Positions 45,866-63,130 of a DNA stretch of 64,000 nt are shown piece by piece (positions within the stretch are counted from its first letter, which is position 1; every line of letters begins with the position of its first letter). This DNA is from Nothopassalora personata. Taxonomy: Eukaryota; Ascomycota; Dothideomycetes; Mycosphaerellales; Mycosphaerellaceae. The notes beneath the pieces are model-generated. The model was not told the origin of the DNA. It saw only the letters and a list, made by a program, of their open reading frames with translations, and ran no database searches. Made by a program: the position numbers and the translations under genes. The DNA is taken from positions 1,798,001 through 1,862,000 of the forward strand of contig CM066295.1 in the NCBI GenBank assembly GCA_033816765.1, given 5' to 3'.

Positions 45866-48800
45866 CTCCTACTTATCTTATATAGGAGGTTATAGTCTGC
45901 TCTTCTCCTATTAGTAGTATTTAGACCTCTATAACAGGTTAAGCTAGCTTATAAACCTCTAGAAGTGTGGACTAGTCTTTAGCTTTATGAACCTATCTGT
46001 AACTATCTTAGATGTTAGGGTGTACTTAATAGTAATAAGCCTTCTCTACTAAAGTTTCCTAATAGCATTGTAGGCAATGTTAATATGCTTTAACTTATTA
46101 TGAACATATGTATCCCTTACTAGGGTAAGGGCAGCTTAGTTATTACCTCTTAATTAGACTAGTCTTAAGCTTAACATAGTCTCCTAGTTTCTAGTGATCC
46201 TTAGTTAATGGGAACAGTCTCCTACTAACTCTAGACAGTCTATCTCCCTTAGTAGTAAAGCTAGGAATTGGGATTGCTTTACACATGCATTTATAGCTAT
46301 GTATTTAGCTTCTATTATAGATGTTGCTATAGACTTTTGCTTCTTGCTTATCTAGGAGACTAGTGCCCTATAGAGGAAGAAGACATACCTAAGGATAGAG
46401 ACTCTATCTACTTTGTCCATTGCATAATTAGAGTTATAGTATCTAACTAGGCATCCTTCTCTATGCCTAGAGAAGACAAGGCTAAGATTAGGATATAACC
46501 TTAGATATCTTATAATCTTCTTTAAAGCCTTTATGTAGTAGGTAGATAGGTCACTTATAAATAAGCTTATCCTTCCTAGGGCAAAAGCAATGTCTAGCCT
46601 TGTAATTGTTACTAGCTACATCTATGTACTATTAATACTCTAGTACTCTGCCTTATTACACCTCTTATCTATGTGGCTTAAAGGTTTAAGAGCCTTATAG
46701 CTGTCCATAGGTAAGTGTGTAGGTGCTACCTTCTTATGGTTTATCCCTATCTTAGTAAGGTTGTCCCTAATAAAGTGTCCCTAGTTAAGTTTTAGGATTC
46801 CTCTCCTCCTGTCCCTTATAACTCTTATGCTAAGGATCTTTTTAGGTTTACTAAGATCTTTAATCTTAAAGACTTTGCTAAGTTCTCTTTTAAACTAGAG
46901 AACATCTGTCAACTTTAGTGCAGTAATTAGAATGTCATCTATATGTGTAAGAATTATAATCTCTTTTTCCTTATAAATGAGTAGGCATAGATCCACCTCT
47001 AACTGTGTAAATCTAATCTCTCTAAGCTTTAATATATAGAGTTGATTCTAATCTCTAGCTACTTACTTAAGTCTATATAAGCTTTTAAGGATCTTAAACA
47101 CTATGTTTAGTAGAAGCTTAACTCCTAGTAGTAGTAATATAAAGATGTCTTTATAGAGGGTACTTTCTATAAACGCATTGTTCACATCCACTTAGTAAAG
47201 ATAGAGATCCTTCTTACACACAATAGCTATAAACACCCTAAGGGTGTCCTATCTAACTGTAGGCGCAAATGTCTCTATAAAGTTAACACTAAACTTCTAT
47301 AAAAAGCCCCTTACAACTAGCCTAGCCTTAAACTTTTCAATGGCTCTACTAATGCTTCTTTTAACATTAAAGACCTATCTTAACGTAACTAAGTTTACTC
47401 CTTTTAGTAGAACAGTATTCTCCTAGGTGTTGTTGCTCTATAGAGCATCTAGCTCCTTCTAGATTGCTTCCTTCTAAAGGTGTCCCTATTTCTTGTTATT
47501 TATAGCATCCTTATAGGACTTTAGAATTAGGATCTCTTACTTGTATACAATGACTTCTATAGTTGCTACAAAGGCTATCTCCTTAACTTCTTCTAGGAAT
47601 TCACTATCCTATAGTACTAAATTATCTAGTAATTGTATAGCTATAAAGAAAGCTTAGTAGTAAGTAGTAAGGTTCTCTAAGAGGTCTATTGCTTCTCCTA
47701 CTTTAGTAGCTAGTTTAGGTATAGGGACTATAGATCTTAGGGCTTTCTGTTTCTATTTATAGCCCTTAACATCATGGTTAGCCCTCCTCTCACTAAGGGA
47801 TAATCTAAGAGTAGTCACTTGTGTCCTAGTGACATTCTTTTCCTAGAGATCTAGTAAGCTTATCTTAATTAGCTTATCGATTTTCTAAAATTCCCCTATA
47901 TTCTTTAGAGGCTAGGGAAGTTGCATAAACAGCTTTCTTAGCTAGGCTATTACTAGGCTGCTCTACTAAATGATTAAATAGTAAATAGGTTACTCTAAGG
48001 ATATGTCCTTCCTTAGCCTCCCTAAGGGTCTCCTAGCTAGTGCATTGCTTAATAGATTCAATTTTGTAACATTAAGATCTATATTACCTCTAGGTTGGTC
48101 CTTAAAGAAGTCTATATATATGTATTGTTTCACAGCTTTTATGTCTAGTTCCTAAAAGAGCTAGGCCTTAGCTATGTTTTTAACGTATCTAATAAACACT
48201 ACTTCTTTGCCTCTATTTATTAGTTTATTACTTCTTGCCTATTAAGGCTAGGATCTTATATATATGTAGATAATAGCTTTGCATCCCTAAACCTTTAAAT
48301 GGTTAATAGTTGGCTTAATACTATTAAAGGCTTTATCTAGTAAAACCTTGAACCTATTATAGTCTAGACTATTTAGTAGTTTATTCCTTATATAGGTTTG
48401 GGCTTCTAGTGCTTTAGGCTAGAATTTAATTCGCATCTTAGCCTCTTTAAGCATTGCCCTTATAGAGTCTTCTAAGGTTTATATTAACCTTTTAACTAGT
48501 CCATTTTAGAGCGAGTTATATGTCTTAGTATACTCTAGCCCAATTCCCAAATCCTTCTCCTACTACTTAACTAATGTAATAAGTTCCCTTACATTATTAA
48601 GCCTAACTGCTTTTAACTGTGCTAATGATTTCCTCTCTGCCTTAATCTTCTAGTTCTAGAGAGCAACTAGAGCATCTTCTCTTTTCTTAAGAGGATAGGT
48701 CTACTTTTTTCTAGAGAAGTTATTAACAATCTTAAGCTAGTATTTAAACCCTAGCCTTAATGTTAGCAGTGAACTACATGTGTTAATAGATATAAGGGCA

Positions 48801-50985
48801 AGTCTTTTAGGTCTTCTCTTAGTAACTTTGCCTTTGTACTTCTTTATCTTTACTATTAAACATACTCTACACTAGTGGAAGCTATCCCTAGGAATAGAAA
48901 TAGGTTCTTTTAAGTCTATTACCTTATAAAGATTCTAGAGCAAGTTCTTCCTAAAGTGTGCAAATCTTCTATGCTAAAGCTCCTACTGTTTTAGGTTAGT
49001 CTCTAATTTAGCAGTTACAAAGGCATTCTCTATTAGTGGTGTATATAATAAGTGATATGCCCTTTCTTATAGTAGAGGAGAAATCTCATTAATAAATGGA
49101 ACCCCCCTAAGAAGCCTTGTCTAGACAACAGTTTAGCTAGAGGGGGATATAAGAGAAAATAAAGGAGGTTAGATACTCAACTGCTTACTAAACTAGTTCT
49201 AAGAAACTAGGTTCACCCCTAGCTTAGGTATAAGTAGAACATCTTCTAAAACAACTTTCCTACTAGATCTCCTACTTATCTCTACAGTCCTAATATAAGT
49301 AGCTAACAAATGCCTACCTCCTACTTTAATCTATTTCTTCTTTATTAAGGGAGTTATGGATCTAAAGAGGCAGTTCTAGTCAGTTATATAGGATGAAGCA
49401 TAAGAATTAAGTAACTACTCTAATAAGGGGAACTTGCCTTAGACTTCTATAGTTAAGTGAGCTACTTTATTATACTTATTATTATTAGACATTGTCTTCT
49501 AGGATAAGTTGCATAAGTTAGGTAGCTCTTAGGTAGAGAAACCTTTCCTAGTCTTCCTTGTTTTAGAGGAAGGAGACTAGGCCTAGTTCTTCTAGAGTGA
49601 TAGTATGTTAGAGCTAAGTTTCTTTACCATTTTCTTAAGTTCCTCTATAGAGGACTTCTCTCTTAGTGTTCTTCTTAAAGATAGTAGTAGAGATCTTCTC
49701 TTCTTAATATGTATTATATTCTAGGAGGATAGTGCTTAGGAATAAGATCTAAGGACCTTCTTTGCCTTAGAGAGACTAGGGCAGTCCTTAATGAGATAGT
49801 CCTTCTTATAGAGAAGGTAGGAAAGTAATCTTACCTAACCTAAGGGCCTAACCTAGGTAGCTACTATACTATACTTAGCCTTAGAGGGATTTAATCTAGC
49901 CTCTTAAGCCTTAAGGATCTTTAAGGTCCTTTTATAATCTATCTTTAGCTAAGCCATAATAGTATCCCTAGCTATATAGTAGTTAGGTAGCAGTAAGCTT
50001 AAAAGCTAGGTTATTCTTACATTAGCTTTCCTATAGTACTAGCCCTCTAGGTCAACATTAGCAATCCTTCTTCTAAGAGACACTAGGTGTGCCTATACAG
50101 ATCTAATAGTAAACTCTTCACTTATCTCAAAGTTCATAAACTGTTTTATAAGCTTATGTGTATAGGTTAGTAACACCTAGCTATACTTATTCTAGAGATG
50201 CACCTATATCTTAGCAGCTTTTCTAGATTCGTAAGAGCCCTTAAGCTTAAATTCATCTTCTTCTATAATCCTACTTAGGATACTAAAGCAGTAAGCTGCA
50301 TTTTGTTTTGTCTATGTTAGTGCATTAAGAATCTCTTTAATCTTAGTCTCTTCCTAGAGTTTTAGGTTCTTGCCCTTAATGTTGTTAAATGACACTTCTA
50401 ACAGGTTATTAATTGTAAAGAATGCTAACTAGCTCTCTATCTTATATCTCTAAAGGTTGAACTATCTCTTCTAGTTGTCTCTCCTAAGAATTGGGATTTT
50501 AGTTCCCTTCTCTTCTCCTTTCTCTTAGTATAAATCTATAATAAATTGAATATAATAAAACAAGGTGTATATGCTTTAAGGTCGTGGCTTAGGTCCTGCT
50601 AAGGCTTTTAGTGTAGAATAGTAAGGTTCGTAGGTGTAGATACTAAGGCCTACTTAGTAGGGTAAAGAAAGAGCGGTGTAGTCTCGGAGCTAGGACACAG
50701 GTCTATCTCTCCTAGTAGAGTTCTAAATGACTTACTTAAAGTCCTTCTTAATAGTATCTCGATGCAGTTCTGCCTATAGAGTGTCTTTAAGGTATTGGCT
50801 TATAGTAAGCCGTATAGAGTCCTTTTCTAGATTACCTATTACTTAGTATTGAACTAAGCTCCTTAATAGGATAGATAGGGTAGACTTCTACTTCCTAGAT
50901 GTTTTCTGCTATAATAGTAAGGGATACAAGTAACCTGTACTAATATAGGTTACTCTTACTCCTATACAAACCCGGGCTTATAACC
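45866..50985 (-). pseudogene. Copia gag-pol, RIP-mutated
   Basis: Minus-strand remnants, from right to left. Gag includes a zinc knuckle at about 49785-49832 in which both leading cysteines read as tyrosine (YLLYKKDYLIKDCPS). Integrase follows at about 48200-48900. RT (about 46850-47420) carries LVVRGF, FIETFAPTVR-DTLRVFIAI, DLYLY-VDVNNAFIESTLYKD and the catalytic HIDDILI at about 46935-46955, where both aspartates are still present. RNase H lies at about 45900-46700. Many TAG and TAA codons occur at former CAG, CAA and TGG positions, so no full-length product is possible. Confidence 0.85.
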
Positions 50986-51119
50986 TATAAAGTTAAGACC
51001 TAATAGGATACGTAGTTAGTAGCGGAGTAGAGTAAGAGATCAATCTTTAACTAGCTAACAGCCATAGGGCATGTAGCAATATATTAGGAACTAATGCGTT
51101 AGTTATGTTAGATGTCTAT
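50986..51119 (-). repeat. Copia 5' LTR, first part (134 bp)
   Basis: Begins TATAAAGTTAAGACC and ends GATGTCTAT, where the nested element is inserted. The rest of the LTR is at 63018-63130. The internal flank 50971-50985 (minus strand GGTTATAAGCCCGGG) is the probable primer-binding site. Confidence 0.9.
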
Positions 51120-51513
51120 TATTGACGACTAATTAGTTGTGTTAACCTTAGGTTTAGTTATGTCGACCTTAGGTTTAGAGGGGAGGGTTCCTTAGGTCTA
51201 ACTTGCCCCTATTTCATTTAGGTTTAATTGGACATTTAGGTGAGCTAGCGGGACTAGTATAGCTATTAAGATATATACTGCGCAGTTAAGCATTGTAAGC
51301 GTAGCATTAAGGCAATAATTCAATTTATACCTCTCGAGTAGAGGGTATAGGGGTTTAGGTCCGCCAATCCTCCTGTTTTATCTAGCTACTACGCTACTCG
51401 TCACGTAACCTAATTTCACGGTCCCGGGACCGGCAAATACCTCTGCTTACATAAGCGCCGCTCCACACTACTACAACTTGGACAGGCCTACATAGGGTAG
51501 TCAGTAGACATTA
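51120..51513 (+). repeat. 5' LTR of the innermost element
   Basis: 394 bp, starts TATTGACGACTAATTAG and ends GTAGACATTA. It differs from the 3' LTR by scattered C/T and G/A transitions, so the LTR pair has been mutated after insertion. Confidence 0.92.
51419..51432. repeat. Palindrome core in the 5' LTR
   Basis: CGGTCCCGGGACCG, a perfect 14-bp palindrome, followed by GCAAAT. It is the core of the 26-bp palindromes at 54809 and 58660. Confidence 0.9.
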
Positions 51514-51575
51514 TTTTAGTGGTTAATAAGGGGGGGTATTAAGTGTACACCCGGTGGCGTATTAGCATCCAGTTT

Positions 51576-51730
51576 ATAAGGTTAAAATCACGGTTTAAGG
51601 TCTAAGGCTCACGGTTAAGGTCATTACTCAAGGTTAAGGTTTAAGGTTAAGGTTCAAGGTTAAGGTTTAAGGTTAAGGTTCACGGTTAAGGTCAACTAAG
51701 GTCGAAAACACTTAAGGTCTAAGGTATTTA
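51576..51730. repeat. GGTTAA-rich short tandem repeat in the element leader
   Basis: Irregular array of AAGGTT, TTAAGGTT and CACGGTT units starting about 60 bp after the 5' LTR, in the untranslated leader before gag. It resembles, but is not, the TTAGGG telomere repeat. Confidence 0.75.
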
Positions 51731-51889
51731 GTAACAATTACGGTCATAAGGTCCTATTAAGTAACAACTAGTATTAGTACATTCTAAAGTAAGCACTACG
51801 TAACAATAGATACGGCTACATTACTAGAAAAACTTAGCACCTTTGCCGACATAGGTAGAGGCTACGAATAGCCTATAAACCCCACGAAA

Positions 51890-54700
51890 ATGGAAGGGGT
51901 CTACAGGGATTCTATCCCTTATAAGGGGATAGAGGAATCGGAGGAAGGGGAAACACCTAAATCTAGTAAGGAAGGGAGAAGCGGAACTAGCGCCGCTAAA
52001 TTAGGTATAGGTGTAGGAACGAACAGCACAATTGGAATAGATACTATAACTGCCCTCTTTAGACGATTAGTAGTAGTAATGGAAAACGCTAGCCCTCGCT
52101 TTCCACCTCTAGGAGGTGCTAAGAATCCGTTCTTTAATAGTACCAATGCTACTAAGTTCTAGGAGCGGTTTAGCGACCTAATGGACTAGTACCCGCCTCG
52201 GGTATCTATTAAGAAGGATGATTTCTAAGGCAGGTTTAAGCGCAATTGCGAAACTACTATCCGGCGCGTGGTTATAAGGCTACCTAGGTGGCTTACTAAT
52301 AAGGCACGTTTTAGGAGGGCGTTCTTATTAGAGTTCTTAAGGTTTAACGCCTACTCGATGTTAGGAAGTCGGGAATATCTTAAGGAGATTATTAGGGCGC
52401 AGTAAGGCAAGAAGCCTAAAGAACAAGATATGAAGGAATTCATCCGCCTATTTGTATCCTTAAGTAACCTAATTGAACCTAAGGATTTAGATAATAGCTC
52501 CCGGAGTCGCCTCCTCCTTTAGGGATTGCTAGAGGGAGTCGCGAAAGCGGTCTATAAGGCTTGCGGGCTTTACCTAAAGTAACCTAAGAAGTTTAGGGAC
52601 TTTTAGAGAATCCTCGATGAAGCTACTAGCATCGTAGATGGTAAGGAGGGATAGAAAGCTATACATATAGATTTCCCTCTTACTTTACCTTAGCTACACC
52701 GCTTAGTCGTAAAGCAAATGCCGCGCCTTAAGCCTAAGATTAATACGCTTAAGAAGGCCACTTCTAGGACTGTTATTAATGATGACCTCATCTAGAAGGT
52801 AGCTGAAATGAGCATACGTGCATACTAGCGCGGTCGCGTCGCGGACGCGGGTGCCTTCTACCCGAGCGAGAATTAACGCTCTATATAACCGGAGAGGTAC
52901 GACCTAGATACTAAACTGTAGGTTTACGCAATGTAGCGTCCCCTATCGTAGAATCGCGAACAGTCCAAAGCGATAGATAGTTATTACTACAACTGTAGCA
53001 GTTCGAAGCACTAGGCTAGTAACTATAGGGCGATAAGGTCCTTAATATCTCGGGGCTACGTACACCTCGCCCCGAATAACTAGTAGTATCTAGGGAAAGA
53101 AGGCGATCCGCGTCCTACTAAGTTCAACTTTCGGAGGGACTATAGTAAACCGAAACTGCTCTATATGCTCCCTCTACTCGAAGAACATTATAGGCCGATC
53201 GAGTTTAATAACTAGTATAAGATTTCTGTACTACGTAAGCAATGGATAGGTAGGGACTACACTAGGGTAACAAAGGTTACGCCTCCTAATCATTCTAAGC
53301 CCCCTCCTAACTTTAGGCATTTAATGGAGTATAGCCCTTAGGACGCACGGTCTAGCTAAATAGAGAAGGCTACTAGTACATATTAGGTCTCATTCGGAGA
53401 AAGTGAAGTAGAGTAGGCAGTTAACTTAGGCGAGCTTAACGAGGTATCTGCCTATCCTATGTAGTCTAACAAAGTGAAAGGGAAGGCATCCGTAGGCATT
53501 CTAAAGAATCCGCACCCGAGGACCCGGTCCTTAGCCTAGGATCTACGAGCCCGAGCTAAGGCTACTAAGAAAGTTCGCCTACAATTAGAATAGGAGATCC
53601 GGTAAGCTAAGATTAACTAGTAGGAGGTTAAAATAATTGATGAAGTTAGTAGTTAAATAAGCGAAACTCAATCATTAGCTAAATCCGGGGTAACCCTAGG
53701 AAGGGGAAATGATGCCTAAGTAAATAGATTAGGGAACGATGCTAATAAAGGACTGCCTAAGGATATGTCTATTAGTCCCGTAAACGCCCCCTTTGCATAA
53801 AGGAAGCGTATATAGAATGCTAAGACTATAAGGATTAATAACTACGTCCGACAATATAGTTTAGCTAGTAATAGCCCGGTTATAAAGGAAGAGGGTATTA
53901 TCTACTAGATTGATTAGATCCTCTAGATAACGTTTCCTAATGTGAACGCCTAAGATTAGTTTCGATATAGTCGCTAGTTCGAAGCTGCCCTCTTCGGTCG
54001 CGTTACTAACACCCCCGCTCTTTAGGAGAAGCTCGCTACAGTGCGACGCCTTATAGGAAAGGACCCTAAGGTCCGCACTAGAAAAGTGGTTACCTGTGAA
54101 GATGAACCTAAGTATAATAAGGAGGTCTTCCGCGAAGATAGTTAGGCCTAGTATGTCGGAGTGTATTTAACTATACTTTACTCTAAAGGAGCGGTCCCTA
54201 CTACTAAGCTCTATAAGGACGTTAAGAAAATCGGGCTCTCTAGTGTCCTTAACAACTTTACTATAGTCCCTAGTCCTTAGGTAGTAGCGGAGTTCGGGAT
54301 AAACAAGAACTAGATTAGGTGCCTAATTGACGAGGGTTCCGAGGTGAATATTATCGGCTAGAGGAACGCTTATAGATTTAGGTTACCGGTAATATTGAGT
54401 ACTTAGCTTACCTTTCGAGGTGCTAGAGGGCGGGCCTAGTTTAAAGGTGTTATAGGCAATTTGGATGTTTAGGTATTTAGGGTTCACTACTAAATGGACA
54501 TGTTTATCTCCTCGGATCTAAACTTACTAATAATCCTAGGACGTCCGTAGGCCCGTAAGGTGCGACTTACTACCCGTAACTGCGATAATAGTTCATAGGA
54601 CGGGACTATTACTAGCCGTAAAGGTAAAAGTGTCATGTTTACTGCCCTAGTTAGCTCGGACAGGTACAAGACCCTTTAAGAACTGTTAAAAGCGTCGGGA
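51890..54700 (+). pseudogene. Gag-protease module of the innermost element
   Basis: ATG at 51890 opens MEGVYRDSIPYKGIEESEEG and stays open for 90 codons before the first RIP stop. The frame then continues with a capsid-like region (RWLTNKARFRRAFLLEFLRF; MKEFIRLFVSLSNLIEPKDL). The zinc knuckle near 52985-53030 has its first and last cysteines changed to tyrosine. The aspartic protease is seen at about 54315-54350 (RCLIDEGSEVNII), with E after the catalytic Asp. No palindrome or LTR feature lies within the module; the first internal palindrome follows its end by about 100 bp. Confidence 0.75.
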
Positions 54701-54808
54701 AATAGAAGGGTAGGTTGAGTTACGGCGCTTAACCTACCGACTTACTAAAGCCGGATTTAATGAAATTAGTAAGGTTCTCGTACTATCTCGGAAAAACCTC
54801 GGACTTTA

Positions 54809-54834
54809 ATTTACCGGTCCCGGGACCGGTAAAT
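54809..54834. repeat. Perfect 26-bp palindrome, internal copy 1
   Basis: Half-site ATTTACCGGTCCC followed directly by its reverse complement, no spacer. Located between the gag-protease and RT-integrase modules. It is identical to the copy at 58660-58685. Confidence 0.95.
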
Positions 54835-54869
54835 AGCTATAGTGAGGAAAACGGATACGACTACGACAC

Positions 54870-57800
54870 GACGCATCTATAGCACGACACGACGCATCTG
54901 TAGGAACCCGGCAAGGCTCTAACGCCTAGTAACCATTTAGCTCACTTATTAGGATTGCTTAGGACTACTAGAGTAAAGGAACGAGTTATAGAAATTGGAA
55001 TAGGCGCGTTTAAGGGAGATTCTATTGCTAACGTTTATTTAGTTTAAGGGGATTAGCCTTCCGAGATCCTAAGGCAATCTACATTAAATGCTTAGGCACG
55101 GAAGTAGTAAGTAGGCTAACATATAGCTAATATTAGGATGCCGTAGGTCTTTACGATGTATAAGCGTAAGGCGGACAAGAAGAAGCTAGTAGACGCGAGC
55201 GTTTACGAACGCCTAGAATCACGAGTTAAGGGAGATATAGAATAGAAGCGTAGGGCACTATACCTAGAATCTAAGATGCCTAAAGGATAAGGACCGTTCG
55301 ATAGGAAGTACTTAACTAAGAAATTCTCAAGTATTAAGCGAGGTAGCCGAATCACTCTAGAACGACTTACCTTAATTAAGGTTAGCATTAAGCTATTACT
55401 AATGGAAAGGGCCTTATTCGATAAGATGCTCTACAACCGGGAGGTAGTCCTCGCTTAGGATTTTAGTTACATAAGGCAAATTAGGCACGACGTCGTGCCA
55501 CCTTAGAAGATTAACACGGTCCCTCATAGGCTATGGTAGGCACGCCCTATCCGGTTGCACCTAAGTCTTAGGGCAATCGTTAAGCGCATAATTAGAGCCC
55601 GGATTAAGAACAACATCCTAGAATACTCACAAGGGGCATACTCTAATAACTGGTTCCTAGTCGTAAAGAAGGTTAATGCCTCTAGAAGCGATGTGCTATA
55701 TCGGTTAATTAACTTAGCTATGCTCCTAAATGAGGTTACTATGCGCGATGCTAACATTCCACCGGATACGGATAGCTTCTTAGAGGATTTTACCGGGTGC
55801 CGAGTCGCTTCACTTATGGACCTGTTTTTAGGTTATGATTAGATTACTTTAGATAAGTCCTACCGGGACTTAATAGCCTTTATGACCCCTCTTAGCCTAG
55901 TACGTAACACGACTCTACCTTAAGGAGCTACTAATTCAGTTACTTAGTTCGTGCGTACGGTAATAAAGATTCTACTTAATTATATCTCGCATTGAGCGAA
56001 GCCGTTCCTCGATAACATCGGTATTAAGGGACTAACTAAGGACTATAGGAATGCCGAAGTAGAGCCTAGGCTAAGGAGATGGGTCGTTAAGCACATCGTC
56101 TCCCTAGATCTAGTTCTTACTAACCTAGAGAGAGCTGGTGCGGTGGTTACTAGAGGCAAATCCTAATAGTTATATAAAAAGCTTAAGATTGTTAGGTACG
56201 TTACTAGCCCGGACGGTCGCTATCCTAACCTAAAGGTTGTAGCTAAGATCCTAGACTAGCCTACGCCTACCTGTATTAAGGAGGTCCGTACCTATGTAGG
56301 GCTATATGTGTACTTCCGGATATAGATTCCCTAGTTCGTTATTATCGCTCGACTAATGTATAAGCTACTAAAGAAGGACGCCGAGTTCACCTAGATAGAA
56401 AATAAGCAGTTCTTAAAAGAAGAGGTTACTAGATACCTTATGTAGGCTCTAGCCTTAGTTACCCTCTACTACTCACCTAGTGCTAGGTCCATCTTTATCT
56501 TAGTTAATGCTAGCGGCACTAGATAGGGATGTATCGTTTCTTAAGAATCAATGGACAGCACTCGACGGCGTTACCCGGTGCGGTATAAGAGTGGAATCTA
56601 GAACGTGTTAGAATCTAGATATAATACTAGCAAGCGGGAATGCCTTAGGGTCCTTAAGGGGCTTAAGAAGATCTAAAGACATATCACTAGCGTTAATTTT
56701 ATCCTTGAGGTTAATGCTAAGACACTTATATAGTAACTTAACCGGCCGGCTTCGGACCTGCCTAACTCGGCAATAGCCCGGTGGGTCGCATAGATTAGGC
56801 TGTTCACGTTCGAGGTGAAGCACGTTACGGGGACTAGGTACACTAGCCTAGATGCCCTGTCTCGTAGGCCCTCTACACCTTAGGAACCTAGGGAAGCTAA
56901 CGAAGACGAAGTCGACTAGATGATTAATAATAAGCTATTCGGGTACCCGGAGCCGGTCGATACCTACCTAGTTAAAATCTAGAAAACACGATATCTCGGG
57001 GACTAATATTCTAAAAGCTCTTAGTAACTTGCTTAGGTTATAGAAACTAGGACCCGGCCCGATAGTGTTACCCGTGCTAAGTACCGGCGACTAGTAAAGA
57101 AGAGTGTCAATTTCTTTATCCGAGACTAATTACTATTCTTCTAGAAGCGCCGAGGAGCACCGTTATAACTTATAATTAACGATAATAAGGCTTAGAAGGA
57201 GATCGTTATAGAATGCTATGAAAGACACGGTCATCGTAGCGCTAAGGTCGTGTATAACCTTATTTCCGATCGGTATTACTAGGACGGGTGCTTCGCCGAT
57301 GTCTCTACGTAGGTTCAAAGTTATGCTCCTTATAGGTTTCGCGAAGGCAACTAGCGCGCTAGTGAGCTTTACTCATCGAGCCCTTAAGTTATTAGTAAGA
57401 AGTAGTACTCGGACCCCGTCTAGGTGTACAAAAATGGATACCTCCTAGTTACGCGCGAAGCACTTAGTAACTAGACCGAGGCTAGAGTAATAAGGGCACC
57501 TCCTAGCTCTAAGACGGTTACTAAGTTTCTATACGAAGATGTCTTCTATAGGCACGGCTACTATGCTAAAATTGTACTTAATAACGCTACGGTTTATGCG
57601 GCTAAGGTTAAGCGGTTGCTCGTAGGGCTTAGTGTTCGAAGGATCCGAATATTACCGTACTATCCGTAGTCTAATACTCCGGTCGAGGCTAGACACCGTC
57701 CGATTCTTACAGCGTTAGTAAAGCTTATAAGGAACACATACCGCGGATAGGAGTAATGGGTACCCGCTATGTTATAGGCTAATAGGACTACGACCTGTCG

Positions 57801-58520
57801 TACTACTAGAATGACGCTAGCTTAGGTCCTATATAGCCATCGCACGATTCTACTAATTGAGGTTAAGCACCCGACGTAGGCGAATTACTAATGGGGATCG
57901 GTAAGAACGACTAAGGACCTACTTACTATACGTGCGCGTCAACTCTAGGCTCGAGACCTTAGTTTAGAAGAGCTACATACTCGAAGGAAGCGACTAAGAG
58001 AACTTAGTAAGGACTACTTTAATTCTTACCGGAATGTTAACTCTATTAATTTCTAGAAAGGTGACCTTATTATAAGATTCGATAAGCTATATAAGGATAA
58101 CTTCTTACGTAAGATCGGTTACCGATAGTAAGTTCCATATCGGGTGTCTAGTGTCTCTAGGGAGTTTAGTACCTATATTCTTAAGGAACTTAATAGCACG
58201 CTAATAAAGGGTGTTTAGGCACGAGAAAACCTTAAGCTAGTTCTAGAGCTTCGCCCGGATAACATAGGAGTACTAGGCCTAGATAATGGGATCGATCTCG
58301 TAATAGGGGAGGGAGAAGTCGCTAATAGCGTCGCTAATAGCGAAGATAGTAGTGATTCGAACGAGATCAAGCCTATCGCCAATAAAGACATACTACCTAT
58401 AGGAGTTAATAAAAGGGGATCGTATCCTAAACCGGAATCTAAGAAGCTATAGATTAGGCCTCATAACCTTTCTATAGCCGAAATTTCACAGTTTAGTAGG
58501 ATCGAGGCTAAGAACTAATT
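54870..58520 (+). pseudogene. RT-RNase H-integrase module of the innermost element
   Basis: RT: HLSLRAIVKRIIRARIKNNI, GAYSNNWFLVVKKVN, LLNEVTMRDANIPPDTDSFL, LFLGYD-ITLDKSYRDLIAFM and GATNSVT-FVR. The catalytic box at 56005-56016 reads FLDN where FLDD is expected (GATGAC to GATAAC, a TpG to TpA change). RNase H follows at about 56400-56750. Integrase: RHGHRSAKVVYNLISDRYY at about 57215, then a core with ATVYAAKVKRLL and a long C-terminal region (LSLEELHTRRKRLRELSKDY, KGDLIIRFDKLYKDNFLRKI). A 95-codon open stretch survives at 55555-55842. Many RIP stops elsewhere. Confidence 0.85.
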
Positions 58521-58659
58521 AGTTAGTAATAGCGTATAGAGTTCACTTTCCTTAGGCATGTGTTGCATATGCCCTTTAGTTTATTAAGCCGATTCGGTTA
58601 TCTAGACTTCACTTTATAGGGTGTTCTTACCTTAGTTAGACCTTAGTTAGTAGAGTTAC

Positions 58660-58685
58660 ATTTACCGGTCCCGGGACCGGTAAAT
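58660..58685. repeat. Perfect 26-bp palindrome, internal copy 2
   Basis: Same sequence and length as the copy at 54809-54834. Located between the integrase module and the third ORF. Confidence 0.95.
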
Positions 58686-59099
58686 CGGATCACGTAATAG
58701 CGTAGTATGCCCCTACCGAATGCTTACCTAGGTAGTCACTAGCACTAGTTTTCGGTCACATGTAGGGTTATCGGACCTTTAGTGTAACCTTAATAGTACT
58801 ACTCTTACTACTTATAAGACCGGTCTCGGCGCTACTGCCTTATAACGGTTATAGGGACATACGCTAAGAGGCATACTTAAGCGTAGCTCTCTACCTACTA
58901 CTTCCTCTCTTTTTCTTTAAACACTAACACTATTACTAGAGCTACTAACACATTAGACGGTTCTTTAGCCTCTCTCTCTTTACGACCTTAACCTTCTTTA
59001 AAGCCCCTACCCTAACACTAAGCTTTTAAAGCTTACTATTACTCTAGAGTAGTACTACGAGATAGCTAGCTCTTACGATCTTACTAATAGCGAATCCCA

Positions 59100-62000
59100 G
59101 TTATTATAGCTTCGGCTAGTCTATCGTTACGCCCGGCTAGCTCGAGCATAGCGCTTACTAGTACTATTACTAGGCTTACCCGCCCACCTTAGACCTTGTT
59201 CGAGTCCCTTCGCCTACCGGATAACGTTAAGCATGTCCTTACTAATACGAACACGCCGAAGTCCGCCGCTAATGTCATGTTCCGAGAGCTCAGTCCTTAG
59301 AAGCGGGTTAAGGTGTTAAAGGACTTCTATAAGGGCTTCGAGAAGGTGTTTAAAGACTGCTCCGTCTAGGTTAACCTGTTTTTTAAGGAAGTTAAGAGCA
59401 GCATAGGTAAGAGCTACTAGGATAAATTCCTTAGTAATAAGAAGCTCGATATCTTGTTTCCTATCGTCGGTAAGATTCGTAAGACCGGTTTAGAGATTCG
59501 TAACCGAGAGAAGACTCTTCGAGCTACGCTTACCCGCTACTAGCTACAGTAGATAGATAATAAGATTCTTAATCGACGCGTTATCTCCGAGCTTTATAGT
59601 ACTAATAGCGGGCGCCGCTAGTTCACGGCCTTTATTAACAAGTACCTAGATTACAGTAGGGCTGTTAGTAGAATTTAGAGGGCACTAATCTAGCGTATAA
59701 GGATCGGCCGCAAGGGCATAGATCGTAAGCGAATTCTAGAGCCTAGTAATCTTACCCGGTGCGATAGGGAGGCTAAAGCACGCAGCATTAATCCGTAGTC
59801 GGCTAAGAGTAGAGAGATTATTAGAAGACACCGCCTAGCCGTCTATAAGGATAGCCTTCTATACTTTATAGAGGGTACTATTACTAAGAAGTCCGCGTCC
59901 CCGGAGGACAGTATAGCTTAACCTAGACTATCTAGCTAACAATAGCCTTAGCTACGTTAGCTACCGGGTAGTAAAGGTAAAGGACGTGTAAAGAGTACTA
60001 CGCTAACTCTACTAGCCTCTACCTAGCCTACAGTCCTATCGAGAGGCGGTCGTAAGTCGAGTCAACTTAAGTAGCTCCGTATAGGCGAGAGCATAGGTAA
60101 GGGTATAACTGCGCCTACTCGATCCTCGCCTAACCGAACGCTAGATAGCGTACCTATACGCGAGGGCAGTTCGCTAGGTACACCGGTTAGTACCCTACGA
60201 TCCACTCCGGTCTTAACTGAGAATAGCAATCCAATACTCACTATATTACCTTCGGCTATAATTAGGGATGTATTAGTCTTTAAGGATTAGATCCTATAAG
60301 AAGACGAGGCCTTCCGGATTAAGCGCGCTAACTGTACCTGTAATAAGCGGTACTGTAGCATTAAGTTTAGAAACTCGATTAATATAGATAGCATTAACTA
60401 GCTACCTAAGCACCGGATAGCGGGCCTTAAGATGCTCGAATATGCTGTCTCGGACGTTCTTAAGAGGGATGGTAAGGTTAGCGCTGTAATGTGCGATTAG
60501 TATGTTCGAGATTTCTACTATAAGGCCCTCTACTTCGTTACGAATCCCGGTATTACCGCTAATACCCTATATAAGCGCGCGCTTAAGGTCTAAGACTAGC
60601 TCTTTAAAGGCAAGAGTTTTTTAGCTATTAAGGTGAAGAATAGGTCGTGGTTTCGCCCTAATAAGCGTAGTTAGAAGACTATTAACCCGCTTAGCTACCT
60701 CCGTGTTCGAGGCAAAGTCGGCACTACGAGTGGCATCGTCACGTATGCTAACTATAACTAGATCCTCGATAAATTCGGTATTAATAAAGCTAACTAAGCC
60801 GATCTTAATAGTACCGGTACCTACATTAATAGTAACATACTATACTAGTACAATAACGCTAAACTGGCACCGCGGGTTAAATTAGTTAGAGAAATAATGA
60901 GTCGAGAATTCGACGTGTACCGATAGTACCTACGAGAATTGAATAAGGTTAGTAACGGCGGCGTCTACTAGAACATGTAGTATTCTCTAAGCTAACAGAT
61001 CATGCGATAAGACCCCGGGCTATAGCTCTTATAAGTGGCGCTATACCCTTAATACTACACTCGGTTCATCTCCTTCCCTAGGCCTACGATTTTTAGCTTT
61101 AATAGGGCTTATTAGGGGGGTAACACGAACACTATAGTATAGCATGCTAGGGTCGACTTAAACCTCGAAATTAAAAACTACTAGACTAGTAACCGGCTTA
61201 ATATGCTATACTCTCTTAACTTAGAGGGCACTAGTAGGCCGGAGTTTTTACACGGTTTTCATAAGAAAGGGAATGCTAGAGAGTTTATCCAGTAGTACTA
61301 GATTAACGACTGTATAGAAGACGGCCGATTTAAGCGTTTCTTCTCGGTTAGGGTCTAGAATTACCTAAGTAAGAACAGCATTAGCTAGTTTAGAGAGGAC
61401 CTAAGCGCTAGGTAAATGTGGGTAACCACTATAGGCGTCCTAATAAGGTAGGCCGTACATAAGAAGACGCTACGTTAGATTAACCCTTACTTTATCGAGA
61501 TCCGCGACGACGACTATCTTAAATTCTAGAGAAGCTGGAGCATGCACTAGGTAATAGACCTCTATCGTGACTTTAAGACGCTAAGTGAGAGCGCTATAGG
61601 ATTTAAGTATCGACGCCTAGTACCCGGCTATCCTTTTCCTACGGCCGTACACCTTAGTAGCATTAGCCCTCTGTCCGATGCCCTAGCGGGTTTAAAGTCT
61701 TGGAACGACAACGAAGTTATCCTTAATGCTAGAAGGTAGCTTAATGCTACGGTCCGCCTAGACTCGGAGCTCTTCTATAAGAAGATACATAATTAGCGCG
61801 TCCGAGCTATGAAATTAATAGACAAGTAGCTTAGCTTAGTTACTACTCTCGAGCAGATGTACTTTATAAGCGAAGGGCGTAATAAGAGCTTCTTCCGTAA
61901 CTACTATAGGAACTTCACTAACTAGCTACTTAGGGACGCGTCTAGTAAGACTAGTGTTAGCTACGACAACGAGTGGGTCTAGATAAAGGAGTTATGTGAG

Positions 62001-62260
62001 ACTAAGTAGAACTGAGTGGTTAGTGTAGGTCTATAGGCTCCTAGTTTCTAGTTGATTTCCGGCTACAGCTATAGCCTATAGGATTCTAGTCCTAATTCTA
62101 GTTCTAATTCTAGTTCTAATTCTAGTTCTAATGCTTCGGGTACAGGTGCTTCTAGTCCTTAGATCTTACTTGTTTCTTATAGTTACTTATCTTCCCTTAA
62201 CTTACCTTCTAGCCACGCGGTAGATTCGTCTTTAGATTTATTAGGTTGCTAGTACTAACG
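59100..62260 (+). pseudogene. Third ORF of the innermost element, unknown function
   Basis: After the integrase module a single frame can be followed for about 1050 codons, interrupted only by TAG/TAA at positions that fit former CAG, CAA or TGG codons. Segments: TLFESLRLPDNVKHVLTNTN, VLKDFYKGFEKVFKDCSV, LDILFPIVGKIRKTGLEIRN, a low-complexity Arg/Ser/Thr region, a Cys cluster CTCNKRYCSIKF (about 60335-60370), MLEYAVSDVLKRDGKVSAVM, KALYFVTNPGITANTLYKRA, REIMSREFDVYR, and a C-terminal Ser/Asn repeat. It has no hydrophobic signal peptide or membrane span that would mark an env gene, and I recognise no domain. It could be a captured host gene or a lineage-specific retroelement protein. Confidence 0.6.
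62087..62158 (+). repeat. 12-bp repeat coding for Ser/Asn near the end of the third ORF
   Basis: Units of AATTCTAGTTCT repeat about four times and read in frame as (N-S-S-S)n, followed by ASGTGASSP. Its in-frame coding supports the third ORF as a real former protein. Confidence 0.8.
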
Positions 62261-62607
62261 CTCACTTGTCTTATGAGTAGCGTTTACGTTATTCGACCAT
62301 CTAGCCCGCTCGATTAATGCTAACATGGCTGTCCATTCTCTCGCTAGTTTCGTAGTATACGTTAGTGTAGTGCGACAGATGCGAGTCGCGGTTATTAACG
62401 TTATTATCACGGTCTCTATTAGAAGGATCCTTTCGATCTTCATAAACTGTCGCTAGTAGGCCCTAGGACTGCCTAACATCTTATATGTTAAGCTAAATGG
62501 TAGGGTGAGCTGCTACGCTACTATAAGACTACCTTAGCTTATAGCGACTAATTAAGCTACCTATAATGCCGGGGCTTACTGCTTTAGAACCTAAGGATAG
62601 GTTCGTA

Positions 62608-62620
62608 ATAGGGGAGGATA
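62608..62620 (+). other. Polypurine tract of the innermost element
   Basis: AATAGGGGAGGAT-type purine run immediately before the 3' LTR at 62621, the expected plus-strand priming site. It confirms the plus orientation. Confidence 0.7.
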
Positions 62621-63013
62621 TATTAACGACTAATTAGTTGTGTTGACCTTAGGTTTAGTTATGTCGACCTTAGGTTTAGAGGGGGGGTTCCTTAGGTCTA
62701 ACTTGCCCCTATTTTATTTAGGTTTAATTGGACATTTAGGTAAGCTAGCGGGACTAGTATAGCTGTTAAGATATATACTACGCAGTTAAGCATTGTAAGC
62801 GTAGCATTAAGGTAACAATTCAATTTATACCTCTCGAGTAGAGGGTATAGGGGTTTAGGTCCGCCAATCCTCCTGTTTTATCTAGCTACTGCGCTGCTCG
62901 TTACGTGACCTAATTTCACGGTCCCGGGACCGGTAAATACCTCTACTTACGTAAGCGCCGCTCTACACCACCATAACTCGGACAGGCCTACATAGGGTAG
63001 TTAGTAGACATTA
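62621..63013 (+). repeat. 3' LTR of the innermost element
   Basis: 393 bp, starts TATTAACGACTAATTAG, ends GTAGACATTA, and is directly followed by the CTAT duplication. Confidence 0.92.
62919..62938. repeat. Palindrome core in the 3' LTR
   Basis: CGGTCCCGGGACCG followed by GTAAAT, so the right half of the 26-bp palindrome is complete here while the left half reads TTTCA in place of TTTAC. Confidence 0.9.
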
Positions 63014-63130
63014 CTATCTAAGCTAAAGGGGAGAGAAGGTGTCTTCCGATAAGCTAAGTCATCGTAGATGCCTTAGGCTATTAGATTATAACCTAACTGT
63101 TAGCTCCCCTTAAGATGCTACATCTTAATA
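63014..63130 (-). repeat. Copia 5' LTR, second part, with duplicated CTAT
   Basis: 63014-63017 repeats the CTAT of 51116-51119. 63018-63130 (113 bp) completes the LTR: 134 + 113 = 247 bp, exactly the intact LTR length. It ends TTAATA where the left LTR has TTAACA. Confidence 0.9.

Follow-up and report, generated by a model that had tools for sequence, protein, structure and literature searches.

A Ty3/Gypsy retrotransposon occupies positions 51120-63013 of a 64-kb stretch of the genome of the ascomycete Nothopassalora personata (positions 1798001-1862000 of contig CM066295.1, hereafter called the window; the genome comprises 54.5 Mb in 40 contigs). The element has a third open reading frame (ORF3) downstream of gag and pol, and copies of one palindrome are found in both long terminal repeats (LTRs), inside pol and between pol and ORF3. 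In the LTRs and before ORF3 the palindrome is accompanied by an E-box at a fixed distance. This composite of dyad and E-box is fairly likely to be a promoter element shared by the LTR and the region before ORF3, with an extra copy of the palindrome in pol. Sequence comparisons favour a DNA element for host factors over a hairpin acting in RNA or a scar left by recombination. All coordinates refer to the window and, except for the target-site duplications, to its plus strand.

The palindrome and its adjoining E-box

An earlier note on this DNA, made from the letters alone, had reported a 26-bp palindrome at 54809-54834 (border 1) and 58660-58685 (border 2), with the core of the palindrome in both LTRs. 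All copies were found; the two internal ones are perfect and those in the LTRs are imperfect in the outer arms, with three mismatches in the 5′ LTR (51413-51438) and two in the 3′ LTR (62913-62938). The number of copies expected from shuffled sequence is 0.00, and among the four perfect palindromes of at least 16 nt in the window these two internal copies are the longest.

The E-box adjoining the palindrome reads TCACGTAAC in the 5′ LTR (51401-51409), TTACGTGAC in the 3′ LTR (62901-62909) and TCACGTAAT beside palindrome 2 (58690-58698), where its offset equals that in the LTR and its orientation is reversed. Less mutated copies give the undisturbed 9-mer TCACGTGAC, in the LTR of the loci L012 and L025 and at border 2 of L012. 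The complete composite of unmutated copies is GTCACGTGACCTGATTTCCCGGTCCCAGGACCGGCAAAT in the LTR and ATTTACCGGTCCCGGGACCGGTAAATCGGATCACGTGAC at border 2, with a distance of 11 nt from dyad to E-box in both. In L012 the LTR and border 2, compared in opposite orientation, share the 9-mer at equal offset from the palindrome, which was equalled by 1 of 5000 flank shuffles, and in the 10-kb piece of this locus CACGTG occurs only beside the LTR palindrome and palindrome 2. Since the composite is inverted at border 2, it seems to be independent of orientation, which fits binding at the level of DNA. At border 1 an E-box is lacking, and the flanks have nothing in common with those of the LTR or border 2 (matched by 5000 and 2801 of 5000 shuffles), so that a duplication derived from the LTR was rejected for this place.

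The same composite in a second family

Two other Gypsy-type loci, L052 and L053, were taken from the list of RNase H matches as a control. L053 represents an unrelated Gypsy family with LTRs of 200 bp which, judging from its open frames, is an ordinary chromodomain-bearing element; the best BLAST match between its LTR and the LTR described here has an E value of 0.11, hence no meaningful similarity. Nevertheless both LTRs of L053 contain CGGTCGCGACCG, followed after 12 nt by CACGTGAC, which in the element's own orientation corresponds to the arrangement at border 2. Among 20000 dinucleotide shuffles of the L053 LTR the composite appeared in 0 and the dyad alone in 23, for a pattern that was defined after it had been seen. 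Genome-wide, CGGTC-n-GACCG plus CACGTGAC with a dyad spacer of 0-3 was found at 210 sites versus 3 in the reversed control; all matches listed are of one sequence type and differ from each other by point changes. No such dyad was present in the stretch of L052 examined, in which the LTRs were not located, and a third family with the composite was not found (a dyad spacer of 5-7 gave one site, L060, versus one in the control). As a separate observation, tandem repeats of about 100 bp are located at the start of the pol frame of L053 (L053:5223-5620).

Two unrelated families with equal half-site, equal partner motif and near-equal spacing are the strongest evidence that the composite is a regulatory DNA element, presumably bound by host factors. 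They also bear on the possibility that the palindrome works in the genomic RNA, where it could pair with itself as a hairpin or between two molecules and so serve dimerisation, packaging or RNA cleavage. In folding, the palindrome indeed gives a stem of 11 bp closed by a loop of 4 nt (−14.9 kcal/mol, z −2.9 to −3.3), the LTR variant of young copies folds as well (−12.5 kcal/mol, z −3.4), and a genomic RNA would contain several copies if the palindrome lies in R or U5. However, such folding holds for any DNA palindrome, a segment of 86 nt around border 2 folds no better than its shuffles (z −0.73), and a role in RNA does not account for an E-box that keeps its spacing when inverted and recurs in an unrelated family. 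We therefore regard a function in RNA as unlikely.

Distribution and conservation of the palindrome

The exact 26-mer was found 464 times and its 14-bp core 1208 times in the genome, each versus 0 in the reversed control. In 24 loci picked for an exact palindrome (L001-L024) all cores are situated within the family, at the gag/pol junction, in the pol/ORF3 spacer or in the LTR. Furthermore, all 55 distinct cores among the matches listed (compared by eye; 1208 cores in total) belong to this Ty3/Gypsy family, on which ground a general host sequence was rejected. The reading given in the earlier note depended on a palindrome that is specific for the family and that other copies of the element keep at fixed places, and both points were confirmed among the loci and matches listed. 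A search in IMG/VR gave 10 contigs with the palindrome, which is about the number expected by chance according to a rough estimate.

Patterns specific for the flanks matched 953 LTR or border-1 sites, including an LTR variant with CCCAGG at the centre of the palindrome that characterizes a young subfamily, and 287 border-2 sites; each of the 55 distinct cores is contained in one of these two sets. Retention was counted by eye among the rows listed of flank-anchored searches that did not require the palindrome. At border 2 the exact inner 18-mer is retained in 89 of 100 rows (266 sites), at border 1 the 14-bp core in 88 of 100 (321 sites) and in the LTR the core in 90 of 100 (646 sites), the CCCAGG variant being counted as retained. 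These counts are preferred to other conservation figures, which are biased because most loci were picked for an exact palindrome.

The copies appear to bear the mark of repeat-induced point mutation (RIP), judging from the predominance of TAG and TAA among the stops of mutated ORF3 copies and from the excess of transitions over transversions in the LTR (0.078 versus 0.009 per base). The palindrome contains neither CpA nor TpG, and RIP reaches only those outer-arm positions which read G/C instead of A/T; these positions vary. It could thus be supposed that the palindromes are scars of recombination or assembly, or chance copies that survived RIP for want of CpA and TpG, and RIP-inert 16-mers are in fact retained above average in old copies (0.53 versus 0.38). 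However, GC-rich inert 16-mers reach 0.55, whereas flank-anchored retention is near 0.9, a rough comparison because the figures for inert 16-mers include the palindromes and concern different sites and another length. RIP inertness therefore seems to account for only part of the retention. In addition, no exchange of modules is evident in the 24 loci, border 1 has no flank in common with the LTR or border 2, and the composite is also present in the second family, so that scars of modular assembly, as suggested in the earlier note, were abandoned and this origin is considered very improbable. Among the incomplete loci, the two in which pol ends shortly past border 1, L010 and L018, were looked at singly for modules joined to foreign sequence at the palindrome and turned out to be copies interrupted by other sequence about 150-250 nt farther on.

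ORF3 and its leader

ORF3 (59106-62015) is interrupted in the window by 43 TAG and 10 TAA stops but by no TGA. It is open over 967 codons in L028; in L012 a change of frame disrupts it. At least 19 full-length copies are free of internal stops. Palindrome 2 lies 141 nt past the pol stop, and from there it is 420 nt to the start of ORF3 in the window and 434 nt in L012. The region 58880-59105 comprises a CT-rich stretch and an ATG-free leader, which is a putative 5′ untranslated region. In L012 the CT-rich stretch follows about 200-240 nt past palindrome 2, and the last 305 nt before the ORF3 start codon contain no ATG (equalled by 44 of 2000 dinucleotide shuffles). A CT-rich stretch of this kind is found in fungal 5′ leaders. 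Palindrome 2 thus probably belongs to an internal promoter. Internal promoters had been proposed in the earlier note for both internal palindromes, and for the site between pol and ORF3 the proposal is supported on computational grounds, namely by the palindrome and E-box shared with the LTR at fixed spacing and by the ATG-free, CT-rich leader.

Alternatively, a spliced mRNA or the genomic RNA itself could serve for the expression of ORF3, and the composite at border 2 would then be a mere enhancer copy or a relic without a start site. Spliced env-like mRNAs have been reported for plant Gypsy elements (PMC7264820, PMC2829016), and a branch-like CTGAT and a CTAG directly precede the ATG of ORF3. 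On the other hand, the LTR and the leader, 601 nt together, contain no GTRNGT donor, in a search which did not include the interior of gag-pol or weaker donors. On balance, this alternative is rather improbable.

The protein encoded by ORF3 has no Pfam match above cut-off and no match in PDB or NCBIfam. An env-like function was rejected because a membrane-spanning segment is missing (the largest hydropathy mean over 19 residues is 0.95). An AlphaFold2 model calculated without relatives was not usable (mean predicted local distance difference test score 35.9), and no relatives of pol or ORF3 were found in IMG/VR.

Border 1 is located within pol

The gag-protease frame (51806-54718) is mutated in the window and open in L027, where it comprises 976 codons, as well as in L012/L025. 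An aspartyl protease match below the curated cut-off is located in this frame near 54290-54559. The pol frame is shifted by −1 and overlaps the gag-protease frame by 91 nt; past the shift it extends from 54704 to 58518. Signals for −1 frameshifting follow the rule of an X XXY YYZ heptamer. Such a heptamer, GGGAAAT, is present in the gag frame at 54697-54703, and 5 nt past it, within the usual spacer of 5-9 nt, sequence and folding give a stable stem of 11 bp with an 8-nt loop and, in the window copy, one G-U pair (54709-54738). The gag stop codon TGA (54716-54718) sits in the 5′ arm of this stem. The heptamer was found at 30 of 32 places, the misses being one unrelated match in the window and one real variant (L030). 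Most likely, therefore, pol would be made by −1 ribosomal frameshifting at a textbook signal.

Palindrome 1 starts 105 nt downstream of the heptamer; its translation in the pol frame is LPVPGPVN. Since it is translated in pol and preceded by the frameshift signal, it does not mark a border of independently expressed modules. The claim that the palindromes separate modules accordingly stands for border 2, between pol and ORF3, and fails for border 1, which lies inside the pol frame without any spacer. Likewise, an internal promoter between gag and pol is not supported: the pol frame continues across the palindrome and is reached by a canonical frameshift signal, and a promoter of its own for pol was dropped once this signal had been found.

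Some further observations concern this region. Six young copies (L029, L030 and L031-L034) have gag and pol in one frame owing to small indels at or just past the slip site; the fused frame has 2230-2232 codons in five of them and 1835 in one. Five of the frame-fused copies carry an identical change, which would fit the spread of a subfamily with fused frames. Just past palindrome 1, in the pol frame (54863-54903), a 21-bp unit occurs once in L012, twice in the window and about three times in L010 and L018; the two spacing classes of 3851 and 3830 are probably caused by the variable number of this unit. In gag (53514-53532) everted half-sites, GGACCCGGTCC, are unusually well retained in old copies and also present in L025 and L027.

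A proposed shared promoter element

Taken together, the palindrome would represent a dyad site whose half-sites, CGGTC...GACCG, are recognized by a host protein that binds DNA as a dimer, possibly a zinc-cluster protein of the CGG-binding type. CGG dyads are appropriate targets for zinc-cluster factors, as CACGTG is for basic helix-loop-helix factors. The dyad of the LTR and the adjoining E-box TCACGTGAC would together make up an upstream composite of the main promoter, and the inverted composite before ORF3 would act as an internal promoter or enhancer. Genomic RNA and a separate ORF3 mRNA could thereby respond to the same factors. The palindrome in pol is not needed for pol expression and may be an extra intragenic site.

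Several points weigh against this proposal. Border 1 lacks the E-box, so that one of the three places does not fit the composite. A TATA-like motif, GATATATAC, is located upstream of the LTR palindrome, and its position could place the palindrome in the RNA. Of the two other families examined only the one represented by L053 has the composite. Conservation within one genome is partly due to shared descent, and the lack of CpA and TpG explains part of the survival. Finally, the ATG-free leader of ORF3 is only moderately unusual.

Comparison with known elements

The closest parallel is found in the Sireviruses, Ty1/copia elements of plants in which palindromic CGG-CCG boxes are found in the LTR as well as before env (Bousios et al. 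2010, PMC2829016). Consensus examples of these boxes are CGGTCTGACCG and CGGTCGACCG; the boxes are regarded as support for an internal env promoter, and experiments on their role are described as still required (PMC2829016). The half-sites CGGTC/GACCG also occur in the boxes of Osr10, Osr8 and Vitis elements (PMC2829016). In both groups, therefore, CGG-CCG palindromes occur in the LTR and again precede the third gene, and an internal promoter has been proposed. However, Sireviruses have an env-like gene, CpG islands and no fewer than 8 and as many as 32 boxes (PMC2829016), whereas the element described here is a Gypsy element of a fungus; its boxes number four, including one inside pol, its E-box is placed at fixed spacing and its ORF3 lacks a membrane segment. 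It does not have the Ty1/copia order of integrase before reverse transcriptase that marks a Sirevirus, nor the eight or more boxes of the Sirevirus layout. The recurrence of this layout in a different superfamily and kingdom is most simply read as convergence.

With Ty3 (PDB 7q5b) the element shares the order reverse transcriptase-RNase H-integrase, the LTRs and a 4-bp target duplication, and its pol matches Ty3 Gag-Pol with 3.4e-42. It differs from Ty3 in the protease located in the gag frame, the −1 frameshift into pol, the additional ORF of 967 amino acids and the internal palindromes. Boty of Botrytis is likewise a fungal LTR element with an additional ORF, brtn, between pol and the 3′ LTR (PMC7264820). 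In contrast to ORF3, which is in sense orientation, brtn is antisense, and a palindrome is not mentioned for Boty in the part of that paper available.

Such a layout in Gypsy or fungal elements was not found in open-access full texts, and the word palindrome is absent from the available part of a survey of fungal LTR elements (PMC3248453). The statement of the earlier note that no Gypsy element with this layout has been described is thus not contradicted by the open-access full texts searched; nonetheless, the layout itself has been published for plant copia Sireviruses (PMC2829016). It is quite conceivable, though somewhat less than probable, that fungal Gypsy elements convergently gained the same host-factor composite and that one family duplicated it in inverted form as promoter of its third gene, which would result in two coordinated transcripts parallel to Sireviruses. 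The composite bears on the question of how additional genes of LTR elements are expressed when no spliced env mRNA is made. It offers a clear testable case, with two short motifs at fixed spacing, common to two unrelated families, and many little-mutated copies in one genome, and a handle on host factors that activate fungal retrotransposons.

Limits and structure of the element

The limits 51120-63013, given already in the earlier note, are correct: in L018 both flanks of the element join with an overlap of 4 bp, the target-site duplication CTAT, whose copies lie at 51116-51119 and 63014-63017 (empty site of L018 and sequence). The 5′ LTR (51120-51512) has about 393 bp and the 3′ LTR is located at 62621-63013. 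Both copies of the duplication were seen in two further elements, CTAT in L012/L025 and CTAG in L026/L027, and single flanks in six loci (CTAC in L004 and L011, ATAG in L013 and L020, GTAG in L018, CTAG in L024); the duplications thus usually have a central TA.

Two LTRs and a short target duplication agree with a Ty3/Gypsy element, and so does the domain order in the pol frame of L012, which is open over 1285 codons from stop to stop. Reverse transcriptase (378-517), RNase H (615-716) and H2C2 (846-897) are above the Pfam cut-off in this frame, and the integrase core (917-1006) is below it. In the window copy RNase H is above the cut-off; reverse transcriptase and the integrase zinc finger are below. 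A chromodomain is absent from the matches to Pfam (E values up to 1) obtained with the pol frame of L012, so that the element is not classed as a chromovirus.

The outermost bases of the LTR are TATTG at the start and CATTA at the end, not TG...CA, also in unmutated copies. The element is inserted in another repeat, which covers 46456-51119 and continues from 63014 onward; a Copia-type reverse transcriptase match (RVT_2, 1e-28) is located on the minus strand of the left flank. The leader (51577-51694) contains many repeat-like units of TAAGGT/AAGGTC, of which fewer are seen by eye in the young copy L025.

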